From a virus, in IMG/VR virus record IMGVR_UViG_3300025889_000618, positions 1 through 30,413 of that record: a DNA stretch of 30,413 bases. One strand, written 5' to 3'. The notes beneath the pieces are model-generated. The model was not told the origin of the DNA. It was given only the letters and a program-made list of their open reading frames with translations, and made no database searches. A program made the position numbers and the translations under genes. Positions 3,775 through 18,643 of the stretch are shown here, in pieces. The stretch's first letter is position 1, and each line of letters begins with the position of its first letter.

Positions 3775-3801
3775 TTTGTAAAATACAATTTGTTATATTT
3801 G
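3775..3801 (+). promoter_or_regulatory. Bacteroidota-type promoter before the capsid operon
   Basis: TATATTTG at 3794-3801 matches the Bacteroidota -7 consensus TAnnTTTG. A TTTG at 3775-3778 could be the -33 element, but the 15-nt spacer is shorter than the roughly 19-21 nt usual for this class. It starts immediately after the glycosyltransferase stop. The predicted start of transcription is near 3807. Confidence 0.5.
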
Positions 3802-3868
3802 AAGCATTACTAACAGTCTTTCTTAGCTTAAAACCCCTTTTGGATAGAAACCCCAAAAGGGGTTTTTT
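3802..3868 (+). terminator. Intrinsic terminator 30 nt after a promoter (short RNA or leader)
   Basis: A perfect 14-bp inverted repeat (AAAACCCCTTTTGG at 3830-3843 with 3853-3866) encloses a 9-nt loop and ends in a run of six T. A weak upstream hairpin (AAGC at 3802-3805 with GCTT at 3826-3829) may form first. The promoter at 3794 lies just upstream, so transcripts from it would either be a free RNA of about 60 nt or be attenuated before the capsid operon. It could also terminate the packaging operon. About 60 nt of A/T-rich sequence follow before the next gene. Confidence 0.75.
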
Positions 3869-4622: not shown

Positions 4623-5543
4623 ATGGCAACAGAAACAACTTTATCAGGTAATTTTGTAGGCACAAAAGCCGCAGGTTATTTTTACCCTGCAATATTGCAA
4701 GGTAACACAATTAACGACAATGTAATTACTATACATGAAAACGTTGATTATAAATTAAACATTAGAAATTTAGGTTTAGGCACGACAGGATTTTTATCAG
4801 TGGCTTCGTGCGATTTTACACCAACAGGCGATGTATCTTTAAGCGATGTAGTATTAGAGCCCACCGACCTGCAAGTAAACATCCAACTTTGCAAAAAAGA
4901 TTTTCGCAGTCAATGGGAGAAATTAGAAATGAGAGGTGCATTGTTAAACCAAGAGTTACCTTCTTCTTTCCAAGAATTTTTCATTCAAAAAAACTTAGAA
5001 TTAATTGCTAAAGATTTTGAGGTAGCAGTTTGGCAGGGTGGATCATTTGGCGGATTTGAAGCTAAATTAGCGGCTAACGGAGATGTAATTGATGTTACAG
5101 GTACTACTCTAACTGCAGCTAATATATTAGCTGAAATAGGAAAAGTTTATGCAGCTATTCCTGATGCGTTATACAGTGCAGATGATATTAAAATATATGT
5201 GCCAATTTCAGCAGCTAAATTATATCAACAAGCAACAGCCGCAGTTGGTGCAGGCTATTCAGGAGGAACAGGTGCAGGTTACAGAGGTGAATCTTATGTA
5301 GGAGAAAAACCATTTGATTACTTAGGTATTCCAATTGTAATAGCAAACGGAATGAGTGCTAATAAAATGGTTGCTGCAAGAAAATCAGATTTACATTTTG
5401 GTACAAACATAATGACTGATATGTCAGAAATTAGAGTTGTGGACATGGCTGCAACTGACGGCTCAGATAATGTGAGATTTGTAGCAAGAATGACAGGTGG
5501 CACGCAATTAACCAACGGGAGCAATATAGTATATTATTCATAA
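4623..5543 (+). CDS. Major capsid protein
   Basis: A 306 aa protein following the scaffold gene by 8 nt. The sequence runs from an N-terminal arm (FVGTKAAGYFYPAILQG) through a CDFTPTGDVSL segment to a helix-rich region (LCKKDFRSQWEKLEMRG), then Gly/Ala-rich beta segments and a C-terminal part that ends in a GGTQLTNGSNIVYY stretch. Size, the adjacent scaffold and abundant-protein composition (few Cys, many Ala/Gly/Thr) fit an HK97-fold capsid protein of Bacteroidota siphophages. The fold cannot be proven from sequence alone by eye. Confidence 0.8.
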   Translation: MATETTLSGNFVGTKAAGYFYPAILQGNTINDNVITIHENVDYKLNIRNLGLGTTGFLSVASCDFTPTGDVSLSDVVLEPTDLQVNIQLCKKDFRSQWEKLEMRGALLNQELPSSFQEFFIQKNLELIAKDFEVAVWQGGSFGGFEAKLAANGDVIDVTGTTLTAANILAEIGKVYAAIPDALYSADDIKIYVPISAAKLYQQATAAVGAGYSGGTGAGYRGESYVGEKPFDYLGIPIVIANGMSANKMVAARKSDLHFGTNIMTDMSEIRVVDMAATDGSDNVRFVARMTGGTQLTNGSNIVYYS

Positions 5544-5559
5544 TTAAAAGAAATTCAAA

Positions 5560-6078
5560 ATGGCTTGTGATTTAACATCAGGGCGTTTGTGGCAGTGTAA
5601 AGAGCAAGTAGGCGGTATTAATACCGTTTACTTTGCTGATTTTGGCGACCTTAGTGGATTGACCGTTACAGACGGTGAAATTGCTACGGGTGCTTTAAGC
5701 GGCAAAACTCTTTATCAGTACCAACTACCCGACTATACAGGAAACTTAACCGAAACATTAACAGCATCTGCCGAAAGTGGAAGCATTTTTTATGAACAAG
5801 CCCTTGAGATTACTTTACACAAATTAAGGGCAGTTGATAGCGATGAAATTAAGTTATTGGCTAAAGGCAGACCTCATATAATTGTAAAAGATAATAACGA
5901 TAATTTACTTTTATTAGGTAAGATAAAAGGAATGAATGTAACCACAGTAGCAGGGCAGTCGGGAACGGCAGCAGGTGATATGAGTGGCTATGTTTTAAGT
6001 TTTACAGGCAGTGAATATGATGCTGCCCCTTTTGTAGCCGATTTAACGGGTGCTTCAATAGTAACGACAAACCCATAA
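5560..6078 (+). CDS. Virion structural protein, possible tail tube protein
   Basis: A 172 aa, beta-rich protein in the capsid operon, 16 nt after the capsid gene. It starts MACDLTSGR and contains several Gly/Asp turns (VYFADFGDLSGLTV), one long helix-like segment (YEQALEITLHKLRAVDSDEIKLLAKG, about residues 88-113) and a C-terminal YVLSFTGSEYDAAPF stretch. Tube-like proteins of the gpV type share this beta-helix-beta layout and abundance near the capsid gene, so a tail tube is my best guess. A head decoration protein is the alternative. Followed by a strong terminator at 6109-6136. Confidence 0.5.
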   Translation: MACDLTSGRLWQCKEQVGGINTVYFADFGDLSGLTVTDGEIATGALSGKTLYQYQLPDYTGNLTETLTASAESGSIFYEQALEITLHKLRAVDSDEIKLLAKGRPHIIVKDNNDNLLLLGKIKGMNVTTVAGQSGTAAGDMSGYVLSFTGSEYDAAPFVADLTGASIVTTNP

Positions 6079-6108
6079 TTCTCTCTTTCATATTTAGTTT
6101 TAGTTTTG

Positions 6109-6136
6109 AGGGGCTGCATTTTGTAGCCCCTTTTTT
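6109..6136 (+). terminator. Terminator of the capsid operon
   Basis: GGGGCTGC at 6110-6117 pairs with GTAGCCCC at 6123-6130 (8 bp with one G-U) around a 5-nt loop and is followed by six T. It lies 30 nt after the stop of the last capsid-operon gene. The T/A-rich 20 nt in front (from 6087) closely resemble those before the hairpin at 12261. Confidence 0.88.
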
Positions 6137-6146
6137 ATTATATTTG
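6120..6146 (+). promoter_or_regulatory. Promoter of structured leader RNA A
   Basis: TATATTTG at 6139-6146 fits the -7 consensus TAnnTTTG. A TTTG at 6120-6123, inside the terminator loop, could be the -33 element with a 15-nt spacer. The same box and arrangement recur at 3794, 12215 and 16144. Confidence 0.5.
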
Positions 6147-6151
6147 CTTTA

Positions 6152-6240
6152 ATAAGTTGAGTTGCGGCAACTATTAAAAAAAATTTTAAAGCCTTTGGTG
6201 AGTAGAGCCCGCAACCTCGAAAGCCAAAGGTTTTTTTTGT
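6152..6240 (+). ncRNA. Leader/small RNA A: pseudoknot with built-in terminator
   Basis: Helix 1 is GTTGCGG (6161-6167) with CCGCAAC (6209-6215). Helix 2 is AAAGCCTTTGG (6188-6198) with CCAAAGGTTTT (6224-6234), containing one G-U. The order is 5' arm 1, 5' arm 2, 3' arm 1, 3' arm 2, so the helices cross as in an H-type pseudoknot. Helix 2 runs into eight T (6231-6238), making it an intrinsic terminator, and the HNH gene's ATG is only 3 nt further on. An alternative hairpin GTTG-CGG-CAAC (6161-6171) competes with helix 1. Related elements lie at 16157 and 17851. Whether it is a free RNA, an attenuator or a translational switch is not known. Confidence 0.7.
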
Positions 6241-6241
6241 T

Positions 6242-6937
6242 ATGAAAGAAATGGATGTTTTAGATTATTTTATAAATAATTTTGACACAGCAATTTTTGA
6301 TAAATCAAATAATAAGTACAAATTTACAAATGGGTTATCCTTATTTTTAAACGATAAAATATATGAAGAAAACCCCTACATAATTAGACCTAAATTAAGA
6401 ACTTGCTGCAAATGCAAGATTGATAAATCTTATGATTTTTATCATAAAAATAAAAGTAAAAAAGATGGTTATAATTCAGAGTGTAATCAATGTAGAAAGG
6501 AATTTACTAGTATTTATTTTAAAACAGATAAACATAAATTACTACATAAAGAATATATAAAAAAAATGCCTTTTGGATATGAGAAGCAAAGAATTAGGTC
6601 TGCTACTAGTCAAATAAGGAAAAGGTCTAATAGCCCTTTAAAAACTTGTGATGTTTTAGGTTGTAGTTATGAATTTATATTTAAATACCTTGATTTATCT
6701 AATAATATTAAAAAAGAAATAGACCATATTATACCTTTATCATGGGCAGAAACAGAGGAAGAAGTAATAAACTTAGGACATTACTCAAATCTACAAATGC
6801 TAGATAAATTTAACAACCTATCTAAAAATAATAGATTTTGTTTAAAAAAGAACTTGCAAAAAGTTTATAAATATCATCCTAATATAGAAATAATAAAGCC
6901 AATAATAAATAGAAACCAAGATAAAATAAAAGACTAA
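6242..6937 (+). CDS. HNH homing-type endonuclease
   Basis: A 231 aa protein with a zinc-finger pair (C55-C56-K-C58 and C81-N-Q-C84) followed by an HNH core: the EIDHIIPLS motif with Asp161-His162, then HYSNLQML with His180 and Asn183, and a final NNLSKNN segment. These are the metal-binding and catalytic elements of free-standing phage HNH nucleases. The gene is more AT-rich than its neighbours (many ATA, AGA, AAT codons) and interrupts the row of structural genes with its own promoter and leader, which suggests a mobile insertion. No intron or intein boundary is visible. Confidence 0.88.
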   Translation: MKEMDVLDYFINNFDTAIFDKSNNKYKFTNGLSLFLNDKIYEENPYIIRPKLRTCCKCKIDKSYDFYHKNKSKKDGYNSECNQCRKEFTSIYFKTDKHKLLHKEYIKKMPFGYEKQRIRSATSQIRKRSNSPLKTCDVLGCSYEFIFKYLDLSNNIKKEIDHIIPLSWAETEEEVINLGHYSNLQMLDKFNNLSKNNRFCLKKNLQKVYKYHPNIEIIKPIINRNQDKIKD

Positions 6938-12214: not shown

Positions 12215-12222
12215 TATATTTG
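12215..12222 (+). promoter_or_regulatory. TATATTTG box before a 60-nt promoter/terminator unit
   Basis: A perfect TAnnTTTG box 12 nt after the exonuclease stop. No clear -33 TTTG at the right distance was found. Transcription would start near 12228 and meet a terminator by 12287. Confidence 0.45.
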
Positions 12223-12260
12223 TTTAGGTAATAGGTTTTTTCATAGTTTAGTTTTAAGTT

Positions 12261-12287
12261 AGAAGGGGTATAATAGCCCCTTTTTTT
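12261..12287 (+). terminator. Intrinsic terminator after the exonuclease gene
   Basis: AAGGGG (12263-12268) pairs with CCCCTT (12277-12282) around an 8-nt loop and continues into seven T (12281-12287). It may end the exonuclease operon, or end a short RNA from the 12215 box. The 22 nt before the hairpin resemble those before the terminator at 6109. Confidence 0.8.
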
Positions 12288-15198: not shown

Positions 15199-15519
15199 AT
15201 GAGCAGTTTAAATTCACTTTATTTAAAATTATCAACTTTAAAAGAGATGGTTGATGTTTTGGAAAGAAAACAAGAAAACGGAATAAGCATTACAGTTTCA
15301 ATTAACGATGAAGTTAATAATTATGGGCAAAACATTTCAGCATTTGTTGCCCAAACTAAAGAGCAAAGAGAAGCCAAAACCAATAAGTTTTATGTTGGTA
15401 ATGGTAGAACAGTTTGGACTGATGGCAAGATTCAGGCGTTTGAATACAAAAAAGATTCAGGTCAAGAAAAAAAAGCCGAAAGCGATAAACAAGCTGATGA
15501 AACGGATTTACCTTGGTAA
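15199..15519 (+). CDS. SSB-like protein with acidic DLPW tail
   Basis: A 106 aa protein lacking an obvious standard SSB signature. It has an N-terminal helix, a beta-rich middle (ISITVSIND, NISAFVAQTKEQR, NKFYVGNGRTVWTDGKI) and a disordered charged region ending in ETDLPW. That ending resembles the acidic C-terminal peptide of bacterial SSB proteins (DDDLPF type), which recruits DNA-repair partners. Its position in the recombination operon agrees with a single-strand binding role. Inferred from tail, size and context. Confidence 0.6.
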   Translation: MSSLNSLYLKLSTLKEMVDVLERKQENGISITVSINDEVNNYGQNISAFVAQTKEQREAKTNKFYVGNGRTVWTDGKIQAFEYKKDSGQEKKAESDKQADETDLPW

Positions 15520-15521
15520 TT

Positions 15522-16133
15522 ATGATTAAAATAACAAACGAGGACAACATGCAACTTATGGCAAGGTACGAAGATAACCACTTCGACCTTGCTATTGTAG
15601 ACCCACCTTATGGGATTGAAAGGTTTAAGGCTAAAGATGGTGGTAATAGCAAGAAAATTAAATCTTTTGGAGACAAAGACAAAAATTGGAATGACATTAA
15701 ACCAATTGATGAGTATTGGAATGAACTTTTTAGAGTAAGCAAATACCAAATTATTTGGGGTTCTAATAACTTTAATTTGCCAACCACCGAGTATTTTATA
15801 GTTTGGGATAAAATGCAAATGATGCCAAGTTTTGCACAATGTGAGCAGGCTTGGACTAATTGCAGAGTGCCTGCAAAAATATACAGAAAAAGAAGTATTG
15901 ACACTGAAAGAATACACCCCACCCAAAAGCCAGTTAAACTTTACGAATGGCTTTTAATGAACTATGCTAAAGAGGGTGATAAAATATTAGATACACATTT
16001 AGGAAGTGGTTCAATCGCTATTGCTTGCCACAATTTAAAGTTTGATTTAACTGCTTGTGAGTTAGACAAAGATTATTATGAGGCAGCTTTAAAAAGATTG
16101 AAAATTCATCAGCAACAACTTACAATTTTTTAA
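15522..16133 (+). CDS. DNA adenine- or cytosine-N4 methyltransferase (beta-class order)
   Basis: A 203 aa amino-methyltransferase. Catalytic motif IV DPPYG is at residues 27-31. HPTQKPVKLYEWLL lies near 131-144 and the AdoMet-binding motif DTHLGSGS is at 157-164, followed by the LTACELD acidic end. Motif IV before motif I is the beta-class order. Little room for a target-recognition domain, so specificity may be short. The frame opens at TTG 15513, but ATG 15522, just after the SSB-like gene stop, is preferred. Probably protects phage DNA from restriction. Confidence 0.9.
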   Translation: MIKITNEDNMQLMARYEDNHFDLAIVDPPYGIERFKAKDGGNSKKIKSFGDKDKNWNDIKPIDEYWNELFRVSKYQIIWGSNNFNLPTTEYFIVWDKMQMMPSFAQCEQAWTNCRVPAKIYRKRSIDTERIHPTQKPVKLYEWLLMNYAKEGDKILDTHLGSGSIAIACHNLKFDLTACELDKDYYEAALKRLKIHQQQLTIF

Positions 16134-16143
16134 ATAAAATTGT

Positions 16144-16151
16144 TATATTTG
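16144..16151 (+). promoter_or_regulatory. Promoter of structured leader RNA B
   Basis: TATATTTG, a perfect TAnnTTTG box 10 nt after the methyltransferase stop. The 10-mer GTTATATTTG is also present at the 3794 promoter. No clear -33 box. Confidence 0.5.
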
Positions 16152-16156
16152 ATAAA

Positions 16157-16240
16157 GGGTAGTTGCATTACCTAAAAATTATTTTTTTACCTAAAGCCTT
16201 TTGGTAATTCGATGCAACCGATGAACTGAAAGGCTTTTTT
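16157..16240 (+). ncRNA. Leader/small RNA B: pseudoknot with built-in terminator
   Basis: Helix 1 is GTTGCAT (16162-16168) with ATGCAAC (16212-16218). Helix 2 is AAAGCCTTT (16193-16201) with AAAGGCTTT (16229-16237). They cross in the same order as in RNA A and helix 2 ends in six T. RNA A and B share GTTGC, AAAGCCTTT, GGT and GCAACC in register, so they are probably related by descent. Alternatives exist: GGTA/TACC (16158-16161 with 16169-16172) and ATTACC/GGTAAT (16167-16172 with 16203-16208). The next start codon is 13 nt after the T-tract. Confidence 0.7.
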
Positions 16241-16253
16241 ATTAATTAAAATT

Positions 16254-17135
16254 ATGAACAGAGATTTATTTGGAAACGAAATTATTACAAATCCTTTATT
16301 AAGGGATAAATTTTTAGAACCACCTTTTAGTGTTTTAGATACAAAAGGAGGCGCGTGGCAAAGTAGAAAAAAAGAGTGGAAAAGATTAGGTATCAAAAGT
16401 CATTTAGGAAGAGATGCAGAGTGTAATGTAAAAACTATGAGTGGTTTAACTCCTGAGCAATACTTTGAAAAATACGGAAGAAAGCCAATGACAGGTGTAT
16501 CAATTTTTGACCCTGCCTTATGCGAGTTAATTTATAATTGGTATTGTTTTAAAAATGGAGAAATATTAGATCCATTTTGTGGTGGTTCAGTTAGGGGTGT
16601 TGTAGCAAGTTATTTAGGTTATAAATATACAGGCATTGATATAAGACAAGAACAAATTAATAGCAATAGAGAACAAGCGTTAGAGTTATGTGAAATAACA
16701 AACCAACCAAACTATTATGTAGGTGATAGCAATAAAATTTTAAATGATTTTAATAAAAAGTTTGATTTGGTGTTTAGTTGTCCGCCTTATGGTGATTTAG
16801 AAGTTTATTCAGATTTGGAAGGCGATATTTCAAATAAAGATTACGAAACATTTATAAAAATATATTCTGAAATAATTTTAAAGAGTTGTAATTTATTAAA
16901 AAGCGGAGGTTATGCGTGTTTTGTAGTTGGTGATATAAGAGATAAAAAGGGTAACTATAGAGATTTTATAAGCCATACAAAAAAGGCTTTTATTGATGCA
17001 GGTTGTCCACTTTATAATGAGGCTATTTTATTACAGCCTTTAGGTACTGCAATGTTAAGAGCGGGAAAAATATTTGAAGCAGGCAAAAAATTAACAAAAG
17101 TTCACGAAAACGTACTAATATTTAAAAAACCTTAA
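16254..17135 (+). CDS. DNA methyltransferase with CPPY catalytic motif
   Basis: A 293 aa enzyme. The N-terminal EPPFSVLDTKGGAWQSRKKEW segment is typical of phage modification methylases. AdoMet motif I is DPFCGGSVRG (106-115), then TGIDIR, and motif IV is SCPPYGDLE (175-183), with Cys where most have Asp, Asn or Ser. The product is likely N4-cytosine or N6-adenine methylation, or an unusual base reaction. It is preceded by pseudoknot leader B and followed after 1 nt by a PLP-fold enzyme, so the two probably act together. Confidence 0.85.
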   Translation: MNRDLFGNEIITNPLLRDKFLEPPFSVLDTKGGAWQSRKKEWKRLGIKSHLGRDAECNVKTMSGLTPEQYFEKYGRKPMTGVSIFDPALCELIYNWYCFKNGEILDPFCGGSVRGVVASYLGYKYTGIDIRQEQINSNREQALELCEITNQPNYYVGDSNKILNDFNKKFDLVFSCPPYGDLEVYSDLEGDISNKDYETFIKIYSEIILKSCNLLKSGGYACFVVGDIRDKKGNYRDFISHTKKAFIDAGCPLYNEAILLQPLGTAMLRAGKIFEAGKKLTKVHENVLIFKKP

Positions 17136-17136
17136 T

Positions 17137-17829
17137 ATGATAACTTTAGAAAAATATAATGAAATAATAGTTTTAAGAGATGACCTTTTAACAGGAGGAA
17201 CTAAAAGTATTCTAATGCCCTCAATAATTGGAGATGCAAATGAGTATGTTTATGCTTCTCCTGTTTACGGTGGATTTCAAATTGCTTTATCTGCTTACTG
17301 CCAAAAAGTAGGCAAAAAAGCTACAATATTTTGCGCTAAAAGAAAGGTTAAACACGCCAATACTTTAGAGTGTATTAAATACGGTGCAACTATAAAAGAG
17401 ATACCGTACGGATATTTGACAGTAGTTGAAAAACACGCAAAAGATTATTGCAAAGAAACAGGTGCTGAAAAACTTGTATTTGGTGCAAATAGTATGGAAA
17501 ATAAAATACTAATAGGAAACAGAATGCGACAAATAATAAAACAACTTGGGAGAGAACCAAAAGAAATTTGGTGCGCGATAGGTAGCGGAACGCTTGTAGA
17601 TAGTATTTTAATGGCCACAGATAACGCGAAAGTTTATGGTGTACAAGTTGGCACAGAATATAAAAAAAAACACGACAGATTAACTGTAATAAAGTATCAT
17701 AAAAAGTTTGATAAAGTAAGCAAACACAAAGCACCTTTTACAAGTGTACCTAATTATGATTTAAAAGCATTTGAATATTGTGAAAAATATAAACATTCTA
17801 ACGATGTTTTATTTTGGAATGTATTATAA
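17137..17829 (+). CDS. PLP-dependent fold-type II enzyme (threonine synthase/ACC deaminase-like)
   Basis: A 230 aa protein, shorter than the usual 300-350 aa. RDDLLTGGTKS places Lys23 as the probable PLP Schiff-base residue, YGGFQIALSAYCQKVGKKATIF matches the fold's second conserved helix/strand, YGATIKEI follows, and GSGTLVDS (149-156) resembles the phosphate-binding Gly loop. Such enzymes do eliminations or replacements on amino acids. Next to two methyltransferases it could supply or attach an amino-acid group to a DNA base, as PLP enzymes are reported to do in some hypermodifying phages; metabolic or nucleotide roles are alternatives. Confidence 0.75.
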   Translation: MITLEKYNEIIVLRDDLLTGGTKSILMPSIIGDANEYVYASPVYGGFQIALSAYCQKVGKKATIFCAKRKVKHANTLECIKYGATIKEIPYGYLTVVEKHAKDYCKETGAEKLVFGANSMENKILIGNRMRQIIKQLGREPKEIWCAIGSGTLVDSILMATDNAKVYGVQVGTEYKKKHDRLTVIKYHKKFDKVSKHKAPFTSVPNYDLKAFEYCEKYKHSNDVLFWNVL

Positions 17830-17845
17830 TTTTTTAGTATTTTTG
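17813..17845 (+). promoter_or_regulatory. Promoter of structured leader RNA C
   Basis: TATTTTTG at 17838-17845 fits TAnnTTTG, and TTTG at 17813-17816 lies 21 nt upstream, within the usual range. It is the best -33/-7 pair among the leader promoters. The -33 box is inside the end of the PLP-enzyme gene. Confidence 0.6.
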
Positions 17846-17850
17846 ACAAA

Positions 17851-17943
17851 ATGAAATTACTCCTACATTTAATTAAGACATTATTTATAACCCTTGAATT
17901 TGGGATGCCGTGTAGGAGTGGCTACCATTTTCAGGGGTTTTTT
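17851..17943 (+). ncRNA. Leader/small RNA C: pseudoknot with built-in terminator
   Basis: Helix 1 is ACTCCTACA (17859-17867) with TGTAGGAGT (17911-17919), 9 perfect pairs. Helix 2 is AACCCTTGAA (17889-17898) with TTCAGGGGTT (17930-17939), 10 pairs with one G-U, running into six T. The arms cross as in RNAs A and B, and gap lengths match (21, 12 and 10 nt; A 20, 10, 8; B 24, 10, 10), although the sequence is quite different. A 33-codon frame (17851-17952) spans the element and could be a leader peptide. The replisome-organizer start is at 17954. Confidence 0.72.
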
Positions 17944-17953
17944 ATTTTATAAC

Positions 17954-18643
17954 ATGGCAGAAGGTAAAAAATCAGTTTTACTCTATTGCGACTTGATTCA
18001 TACCATTGAAAAAATGGACAATGAAACAGCAGGACAATTTTTTAAACATTATTTAAGATACATAAACGATTTAAACCCTCAAACAGATAACACATTAGTG
18101 GATATTGTGTTTGAATCTGTTAAACAAAACCTTAAAAGAGATTTAAAAAAGTGGGAATCGAGAGCAGAAAAGAGTAGAGAAAACGGTAAAAAGGGAGGTA
18201 GACCACCAAAAAAAGAACCCAAAGAAACCCAACAGGTTAATTCAAAACCTAAAAAACCTGTTAAAGATACAGTTACAGTAACAGTAACAGATACAGTTAA
18301 TGATATTCTTTTAGAAAAAGAAACAAAAGAGATAGTTTTTCCTTTTCAATCAGAAAATTTTATTCAGCAGTGGCAAGTTTGGAAGCGATACAAAAAAGAA
18401 CAGCATAAATTTACTTACAAATCAGAAGCAAGTGAGCAGGCGGCTTTAACCCAATTACAAAAAATGGCAACAAATCGAGAATTAAAAGCGATTGAAATAA
18501 TTCATCATACAATGGCAAATGGATGGAAAGGATTTGTTGAGCCTAAAACAGACCCAAGAAAAGAAACACAAGAGGCTTTTCAAGCGGTTAAAGAAAAAAT
18601 TAACTTTGATTTTAGTGATGGTAAATTAAGTTTTGAAAGATGA
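17954..18643 (+). CDS. Replisome organizer / primosomal protein (DUF6291-like N-terminus)
   Basis: A 229 aa protein. Residues 1-70 (KKSVLLYCDLIHTIEKMDNETAGQFFKHYL) match the N-terminal DUF6291-type domain of phage replication proteins. A basic AT-hook-like KKGGRPPKK is near 80-88, a Lys/Thr-rich linker contains TVTVTVTDTV, and a C-terminal helical part (MATNRELKAIEIIHHTMANGWKGF) resembles DnaD/DnaT-type ends. It probably binds origin DNA and helps load the helicase. The frame is open from 17894 through the leader RNA; ATG 17954 is the credible start. ATGA overlap to the next gene. Confidence 0.75.
   Translation: MAEGKKSVLLYCDLIHTIEKMDNETAGQFFKHYLRYINDLNPQTDNTLVDIVFESVKQNLKRDLKKWESRAEKSRENGKKGGRPPKKEPKETQQVNSKPKKPVKDTVTVTVTDTVNDILLEKETKEIVFPFQSENFIQQWQVWKRYKKEQHKFTYKSEASEQAALTQLQKMATNRELKAIEIIHHTMANGWKGFVEPKTDPRKETQEAFQAVKEKINFDFSDGKLSFER

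Follow-up and report, generated by a model that had tools for sequence, protein, structure and literature searches.

The HNH gene at positions 6242 to 6937 of the viral DNA analysed here (IMG/VR record IMGVR_UViG_3300025889_000618, positions 1 to 30,413; hereafter the window, 30,413 nucleotides) is closely preceded by a promoter-like box and a terminator hairpin, which raises the question of what this arrangement does in front of a start codon and whether it came with the gene. A preliminary description regarded the RNA, called RNA A, as a switch of two exclusive folds and proposed that, if the gene is a mobile insertion, it brought its own control element. The features of the locus are the following.

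6108 to 6136, plus strand: terminator of the upstream 172-aa gene, outside the insert; hairpin kept in the HNH-less relatives L003, L010, L005, L013 and L004
6139 to 6146, plus strand: Bacteroidetes -7 box TATATTTG, by match to the consensus; the same box lies upstream of family members
6143 to 6935, plus strand: inserted cassette of about 0.8 kb (RNA A and HNH gene), ends approximate; site empty in L003 and L010
6151 to 6238, plus strand: RNA A, kissing-loop terminator leader of about 88 nt, by predicted fold and match to covariance model R1
6155 to 6172, plus strand: hairpin H1, AGUUG-AGUUGCGG-CAACU (6155-6159 / 6168-6172), in the minimum free energy (MFE) fold
6161 to 6167, plus strand: 5' kissing arm GUUGCGG in the H1 loop, by complementarity scan
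6188 to 6234, plus strand: terminator hairpin H2, in the MFE fold
6188-6199 / 6223-6234, plus strand: H2 stem P2, 12 bp
6200-6204 / 6219-6222, plus strand: H2 internal loop GAGUA/GAAA, loop-E-like
6205-6207 / 6216-6218, plus strand: H2 stem P3, 3 bp
6208 to 6215, plus strand: H2 apical loop CCCGCAAC, 8 nt
6209 to 6215, plus strand: 3' kissing arm CCGCAAC in the H2 loop, exact complement of GTTGCGG
6231 to 6238, plus strand: T8 tract, read from the sequence
6242 to 6937, plus strand: HNH / endonuclease VII-like gene, 231 aa, matching phrog_1035 endonuclease VII at E 1.7e-12 (PHROGs); second in-frame ATG at 6251

In Bacteroidetes, the housekeeping sigma factor uses a -7 element with the consensus TAHHTTTG at -12 to -5 (PMC6847099), and TATATTTG fits this consensus, so that transcription is predicted to start at about 6151. 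No other TAnnTTTG box is present between this box and the HNH gene; a sigma-70 scan gave no informative result. The T8 tract ends at 6238 and the ATG stands at 6242, as first described, and the spacing of 3 nt between RNA and start codon holds for this ATG; with the second in-frame ATG at 6251 as the true start codon, it would be 12 nt.

MFE folding predicts two hairpins, H1 and H2, in the leader, with an unexceptional energy for 6151-6241 (z -1.6), and the significance of RNA A therefore rests on comparison (shuffles, covariation and held-out tests), not on MFE alone. The arm GTTGCGG can indeed pair with 6209-6215, where its exact complement was found: seven of the eight bases of the H2 loop are complementary to the arm in the H1 loop, forming a kissing helix of 7/7 pairs. 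The competing local hairpin GTTG-CGG-CAAC (6161-6171) can be drawn as well, but in a weaker register (-0.8 kcal/mol vs -2.6 kcal/mol for H1 alone), and the register used by the MFE fold presents the arm in a loop, so that local and long-range pairings are compatible. On these predicted folds, the pairing GUUGCGG/CCGCAAC is better read as an interaction of kissing loops than as a competing fold. A switch between the compact hairpin and the long-range pairing, although both can be drawn at these positions, is highly improbable: H1 and the long-range pairing can coexist, the kissing pairs covary, the compact alternative is not general (RNA C, L135 and L163, for example, hold the arm in a 7-12-nt loop on the H1 stem), and the plan recurs before many genes, mostly non-endonuclease genes.

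This plan was searched for with a kissing scan, i.e., for a 5' hairpin loop complementary to the loop of a terminator hairpin. The scan identified three copies in the window (RNA A, RNA B and RNA C), whereas ten one-strand shuffles of its sequence yielded no copy. The two additional copies are organized as follows.

16144 to 16240, plus strand: RNA B, preceding a DNA methyltransferase gene at 16254
16144 to 16151, plus strand: RNA B box TATATTTG
16162-16168 / 16212-16218, plus strand: RNA B kissing arms GTTGCAT / ATGCAAC
16193-16205 / 16225-16237, plus strand: RNA B terminator stem
17838 to 17945, plus strand: RNA C, preceding a DUF6291 gene (ATG at 17954)
17838 to 17845, plus strand: RNA C box TATTTTTG
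17859-17867 / 17911-17919, plus strand: RNA C kissing arms ACTCCTACA / TGTAGGAGT
17889-17898 / 17930-17939, plus strand: RNA C terminator stem

RNA B lies between adjacent DNA methyltransferase genes (15513-17135) that match different, partly overlapping parts of phrog_498, and the phage gene at 17137-17829 has a match to a threonine dehydratase-like, pyridoxal-phosphate dependent enzyme. Elsewhere in the window, a terminator-like hairpin separates each of two intergenic TATATTTG boxes (3794-3867 and 12215-12284) from the next gene, with no convincing kissing loops.

Applied to 722 kb of related loci, the kissing scan returned 36 matches (including some duplicates), 26 of them after a TAnnTTTG box, vs 6-9 matches, none with this box, in shuffled controls. 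A looser scan (66 matches vs 19-23 in shuffles) has a high background and was excluded from the counts unless further filtered. A stricter, promoter-anchored list contains 39 distinct members in Bacteroidetes phages, cultured ones included. All 39 are located between a TAnnTTTG box and an ATG, found 7-46 nt after the stem (median 16); box and stem were scan criteria, whereas the ATG distance was not. The kissing helix measures 6-10 bp across the family (7 bp in RNA A) and its length does not correlate with that of the linker, so that the geometry does not argue for strain between the kissing helix and the terminator. A loop-E-type AGUA...GAA motif is present in 15 of the 39 members vs 0.14 expected in shuffled loops, members not being independent, and, in the upstream regions, a -33 TTG element shows no enrichment (6/39 vs a background of 13%).

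Since MAFFT alignment of all members misaligned the helices, covariation was counted on orthologous leaders and in own-versus-cross tests only; P1, inconsistent in alignment A1, was omitted from the count. Across 12 orthologous leaders, pairing reaches 98.8% in the kissing helix vs 35-44% in slid controls, and three of the seven kissing pairs are changed on both sides, as are four pairs of P2 and two of P3. The covariation score of the whole structure is 0.413 in these leaders vs 0.158 +/- 0.020 when shuffled. Furthermore, the near-identical L066 and L067 show one compensatory kissing difference, G-to-T in one loop and C-to-A in the other.

Covariance model R1, built from the 12 orthologous leaders with kissing pairs omitted and RNA A outside the training set, matches RNA A at E 3e-6, and RNA A thereby combines the two characters of the family, a covariance-model match and complementary H1 and H2 loops. 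The clean held-out test is that of model R2 on 466 kb outside its training; the sources of another test were chosen knowing the kissing scan. R2 gave 17 matches with E values of 0.2 or less; 14 of these either coincide with places that the kissing scan had identified or are backed by a complement of their own, and one match, L148 1491-1606, had been missed by that scan. A strong own kissing complement is present in 13/16 distinct matches vs 11/240 cross-pairings (permutation p 2e-5), a test held out for structure, as kissing pairs were never used, and largely, though not entirely, for sequence, as some of the records include copies already known from other loci (e.g., L148 and L127).

Phages carrying the family include Flavobacterium phage 11b, Lillamyvirus, Elemovirus and Cellulophaga phi13:2, and a single phage can have as many as three copies. 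At low search sensitivity, no convincing copy was detected in 299 Flavobacteriaceae and 149 Bacillota genomes; the lone chromosomal covariance-model match (L167) is a plain terminator with neither promoter box nor kissing arm and was rejected. The genes behind the leaders share no pathway and encode DUF6291 replication-type proteins, ParB-like proteins, DNA methyltransferases, HNH-type endonucleases and small ORFs, DUF6291 being the commonest, but most such loci were retrieved using the DUF6291 protein. Upstream of DUF6291 genes, the leaders of L091 and L119 are 94% identical, and the principal group of differences between them is compensatory (CTTCGACA/TGTCGAAG vs CTACCAC/GTGGTAG); other conserved-looking leaders before such genes (L101-L113, L087/L088, L098/L123) do not fit the kissing-loop plan. 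RNA B is nearly identical in L050-L052, where it precedes a ParB-like gene instead of the methyltransferase gene, which indicates that the leader is portable; it is missing from L042 and L043, which have the methyltransferases closest to that of the window.

The same observations bear on the possibility that these RNAs are free-standing small RNAs acting in trans on a host or phage RNA or protein, the downstream gene profiting from leaky termination. An independent unit of about 88 nt with its own promoter-like box and terminator would suit such a role, and the gene order is that of type III toxin-antitoxin systems, in which promoter, structured RNA, terminator and ORF follow one another. However, the diversity of the downstream proteins (DUF6291, HNH, methyltransferase, ParB-like) and the constancy of RNA B while its downstream gene changes make an RNA-protein partner relation unlikely, and the kissing sequences differ among copies within one phage. 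We thus consider a trans-acting RNA improbable.

Twelve loci, some of them near-identical to each other, span the site of the HNH gene and lack both this gene and RNA A, indicating that promoter box, RNA and gene form one insert of about 0.8 kb. The empty site reads TTTTTTATTA joined to AATAAC in L003 and L010, and across the same interval the window exceeds L003 by 799 nt. Relatives identified by their portal (74-98% identity) have no HNH match and no RNA A, the close ones retaining the 6108-6136 terminator. An HNH gene at a site empty in near relatives is one of the characters of a homing endonuclease cassette, the other being an enzyme that cuts the empty site and drives its own transfer; the HNH protein has just distant relatives among cultured phages. 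When the exact 16-nt core of RNA A was searched in viral contigs, the matches besides same-phage records (L016, L026) were unrelated DNA. A self-contained control element on a mobile HNH gene, as initially suggested, is strongly supported by these sequence comparisons: relatives keeping the leader without the gene were looked for and none was found, and an Elemovirus insert has the same composition (see below). At the site of the HNH cassette, four near-identical relatives (L002 at 5484-5640, L006, L014 and L015) carry a different insert of about 155 nt with inverted arms AATTATAGCTACAATAGA...TCTATTGATTTTAGCTATAATT; this site may be an insertion hotspot.

In Flavobacterium phage elemoA_10-9C, the region 5' of an HNH gene contains TATATTTG, a hairpin with the loop arm CCGCCAAG, a terminator hairpin whose loop contains CTTGGCGG, and then the ATG. 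Its kissing sequence is unrelated to that of RNA A and its HNH gene only distantly related. The block is absent from most of 68 matching Elemovirus records, and alignment of elemoA_10-9C with elemoA_1-9A reveals an insert of about 0.7 kb that starts just 5' of TATATTTG and comprises RNA and HNH gene together. In Lillamyvirus hemulen6-1, a kissing RNA (arm GTCGTCG) directly precedes the endonuclease gene gp037 (annotated by Pfam PF07463), and lillamy9-7 has neither RNA nor endonuclease at this site, another gene being present instead. Judged from these alignments, the Elemovirus block is an independent insert of the same kind and Lillamyvirus a third case. HNH relatives in L034, L036 and L037 do not exhibit the kissing-loop architecture.

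The promoter-like box, terminator and immediate ATG present in every member make a cis-acting leader with read-through the simplest reading. We propose, with a probability of roughly 0.6, that RNA A is a 5' leader with a built-in intrinsic terminator at which most transcripts would stop, the gene being expressed by regulated read-through. Transcription would start from the host-type promoter TATATTTG; the 5' hairpin would form first, followed by the terminator hairpin with its loop-E-like internal loop and 8-nt loop, and the latter would pair with the loop of the 5' hairpin before the U-tract is made. Most transcripts would then end at the U-tract as RNAs of about 88 nt, and the HNH gene would be expressed through read-through past the terminator, on which it probably depends, as a separate promoter would not fit into the few nt before its ATG. 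Regulation of this read-through could come from a factor or condition that targets the kissing/loop-E region of the terminator. The sequences themselves show the structure, its covariation, the family, the co-insertion and the layout; promoter activity, termination, dependence on read-through and any regulation are what we infer. As box, leader and gene move as a unit, the putative homing endonuclease would bring along its own control for low or conditional expression.

Alternatively, promoter and leaky terminator could act as a constitutive damper that keeps costly or harmful products low, the kissing helix merely stabilizing the short RNA. The presence of leaders before endonuclease, methyltransferase and replication genes suits this explanation, as does the fact that leader hairpins also limit endonuclease genes of T4 (PMC2988022). 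However, a hairpin and a U-tract would suffice for damping, which leaves the conserved kissing helix, P3 and the loop-E-like motif as surplus; we regard a plain damper as rather unlikely and favour regulated read-through. That these three elements are kept while the sequence drifts suggests that they matter for read-through. The loop-E motif is nevertheless not universal and the -33 TTG element not enriched, both of which count against the proposed mechanism; moreover, a terminator hairpin so near the ATG might leave the read-through mRNA poorly translated, and another step may be needed. It is conceivable, though doubtful, that all leaders respond to one trans-acting factor or condition, phage operons and landed homing endonucleases sharing an antitermination programme via an undescribed loop-E/kissing-loop type of terminator.

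Regulated read-through in RNA A would demonstrate that a portable expression controller can travel with a homing endonuclease, and would offer a testable system for studying the effect of a tertiary contact between loops on intrinsic termination. The structured RNA family, recurrent in cultured and uncultured Bacteroidetes phages, is absent from Rfam 15: none of its 4227 families reaches the gathering threshold in the window or in 20 loci that contain leaders of this kind. Sub-threshold matches to window positions 6135-6250 were obtained for TEG147 (RF03535; 20.3 bits in both RNA A and L116 vs a gathering score of 56.1), RT-14 (RF02921; 24.2 vs 48.1 bits) and RT-19 (RF03073; 20.2 vs 78.3 bits), and all three were rejected. 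They share with RNA A a hairpin with an AGUA/GAA-type internal loop, followed by a U-tract in TEG147, but mainly the H2 part aligns and the genetic contexts differ. RT-14 and RT-19 are associated with a reverse transcriptase gene, whereas no reverse transcriptase match exists among the genes beside RNA A, B and C; an RT-14 search of 198 Bacteroidota genomes gave no match, its control being silent too. The AGUA/GAA hairpin seemingly common to RNA A and three otherwise unrelated Rfam families is a lead. No description of a kissing-loop terminator leader was found in the literature searched, in which journal coverage is incomplete.

Among known systems, the put RNA of phage HK022 is a pair of hairpins located immediately after early phage promoters; it influences terminators further downstream and does not itself include a U-tract. 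RNA A resembles it as a hairpin pair behind a promoter and differs by having its own U-tract, a comparison based on the description of put rather than on its sequence. The HMP-PP riboswitch (thiS motif) is, like RNA A, a compact element embedded in an intrinsic terminator directly before a gene, with a possible pseudoknot (PMC6478431). Its loop sequence is conserved and it serves one biosynthetic pathway, whereas the kissing sequences of the leaders vary freely and the genes behind them are unrelated, and the kissing pairing of RNA A does not obviously break the terminator stem. In T4-type phages, hairpins at the ribosome-binding sites of the homing endonuclease genes I-TevI, segB and mobE limit expression; seven free-standing endonuclease genes of T4 lack a promoter (PMC2988022). 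As with RNA A, the gene of a phage homing endonuclease has an RNA structure immediately ahead of its start codon. However, the T4 structures mask the ribosome-binding site within long transcripts, whereas the RNA A cassette has its own promoter box and kissing-loop terminator, and the kissing-loop leader also serves non-endonuclease genes.
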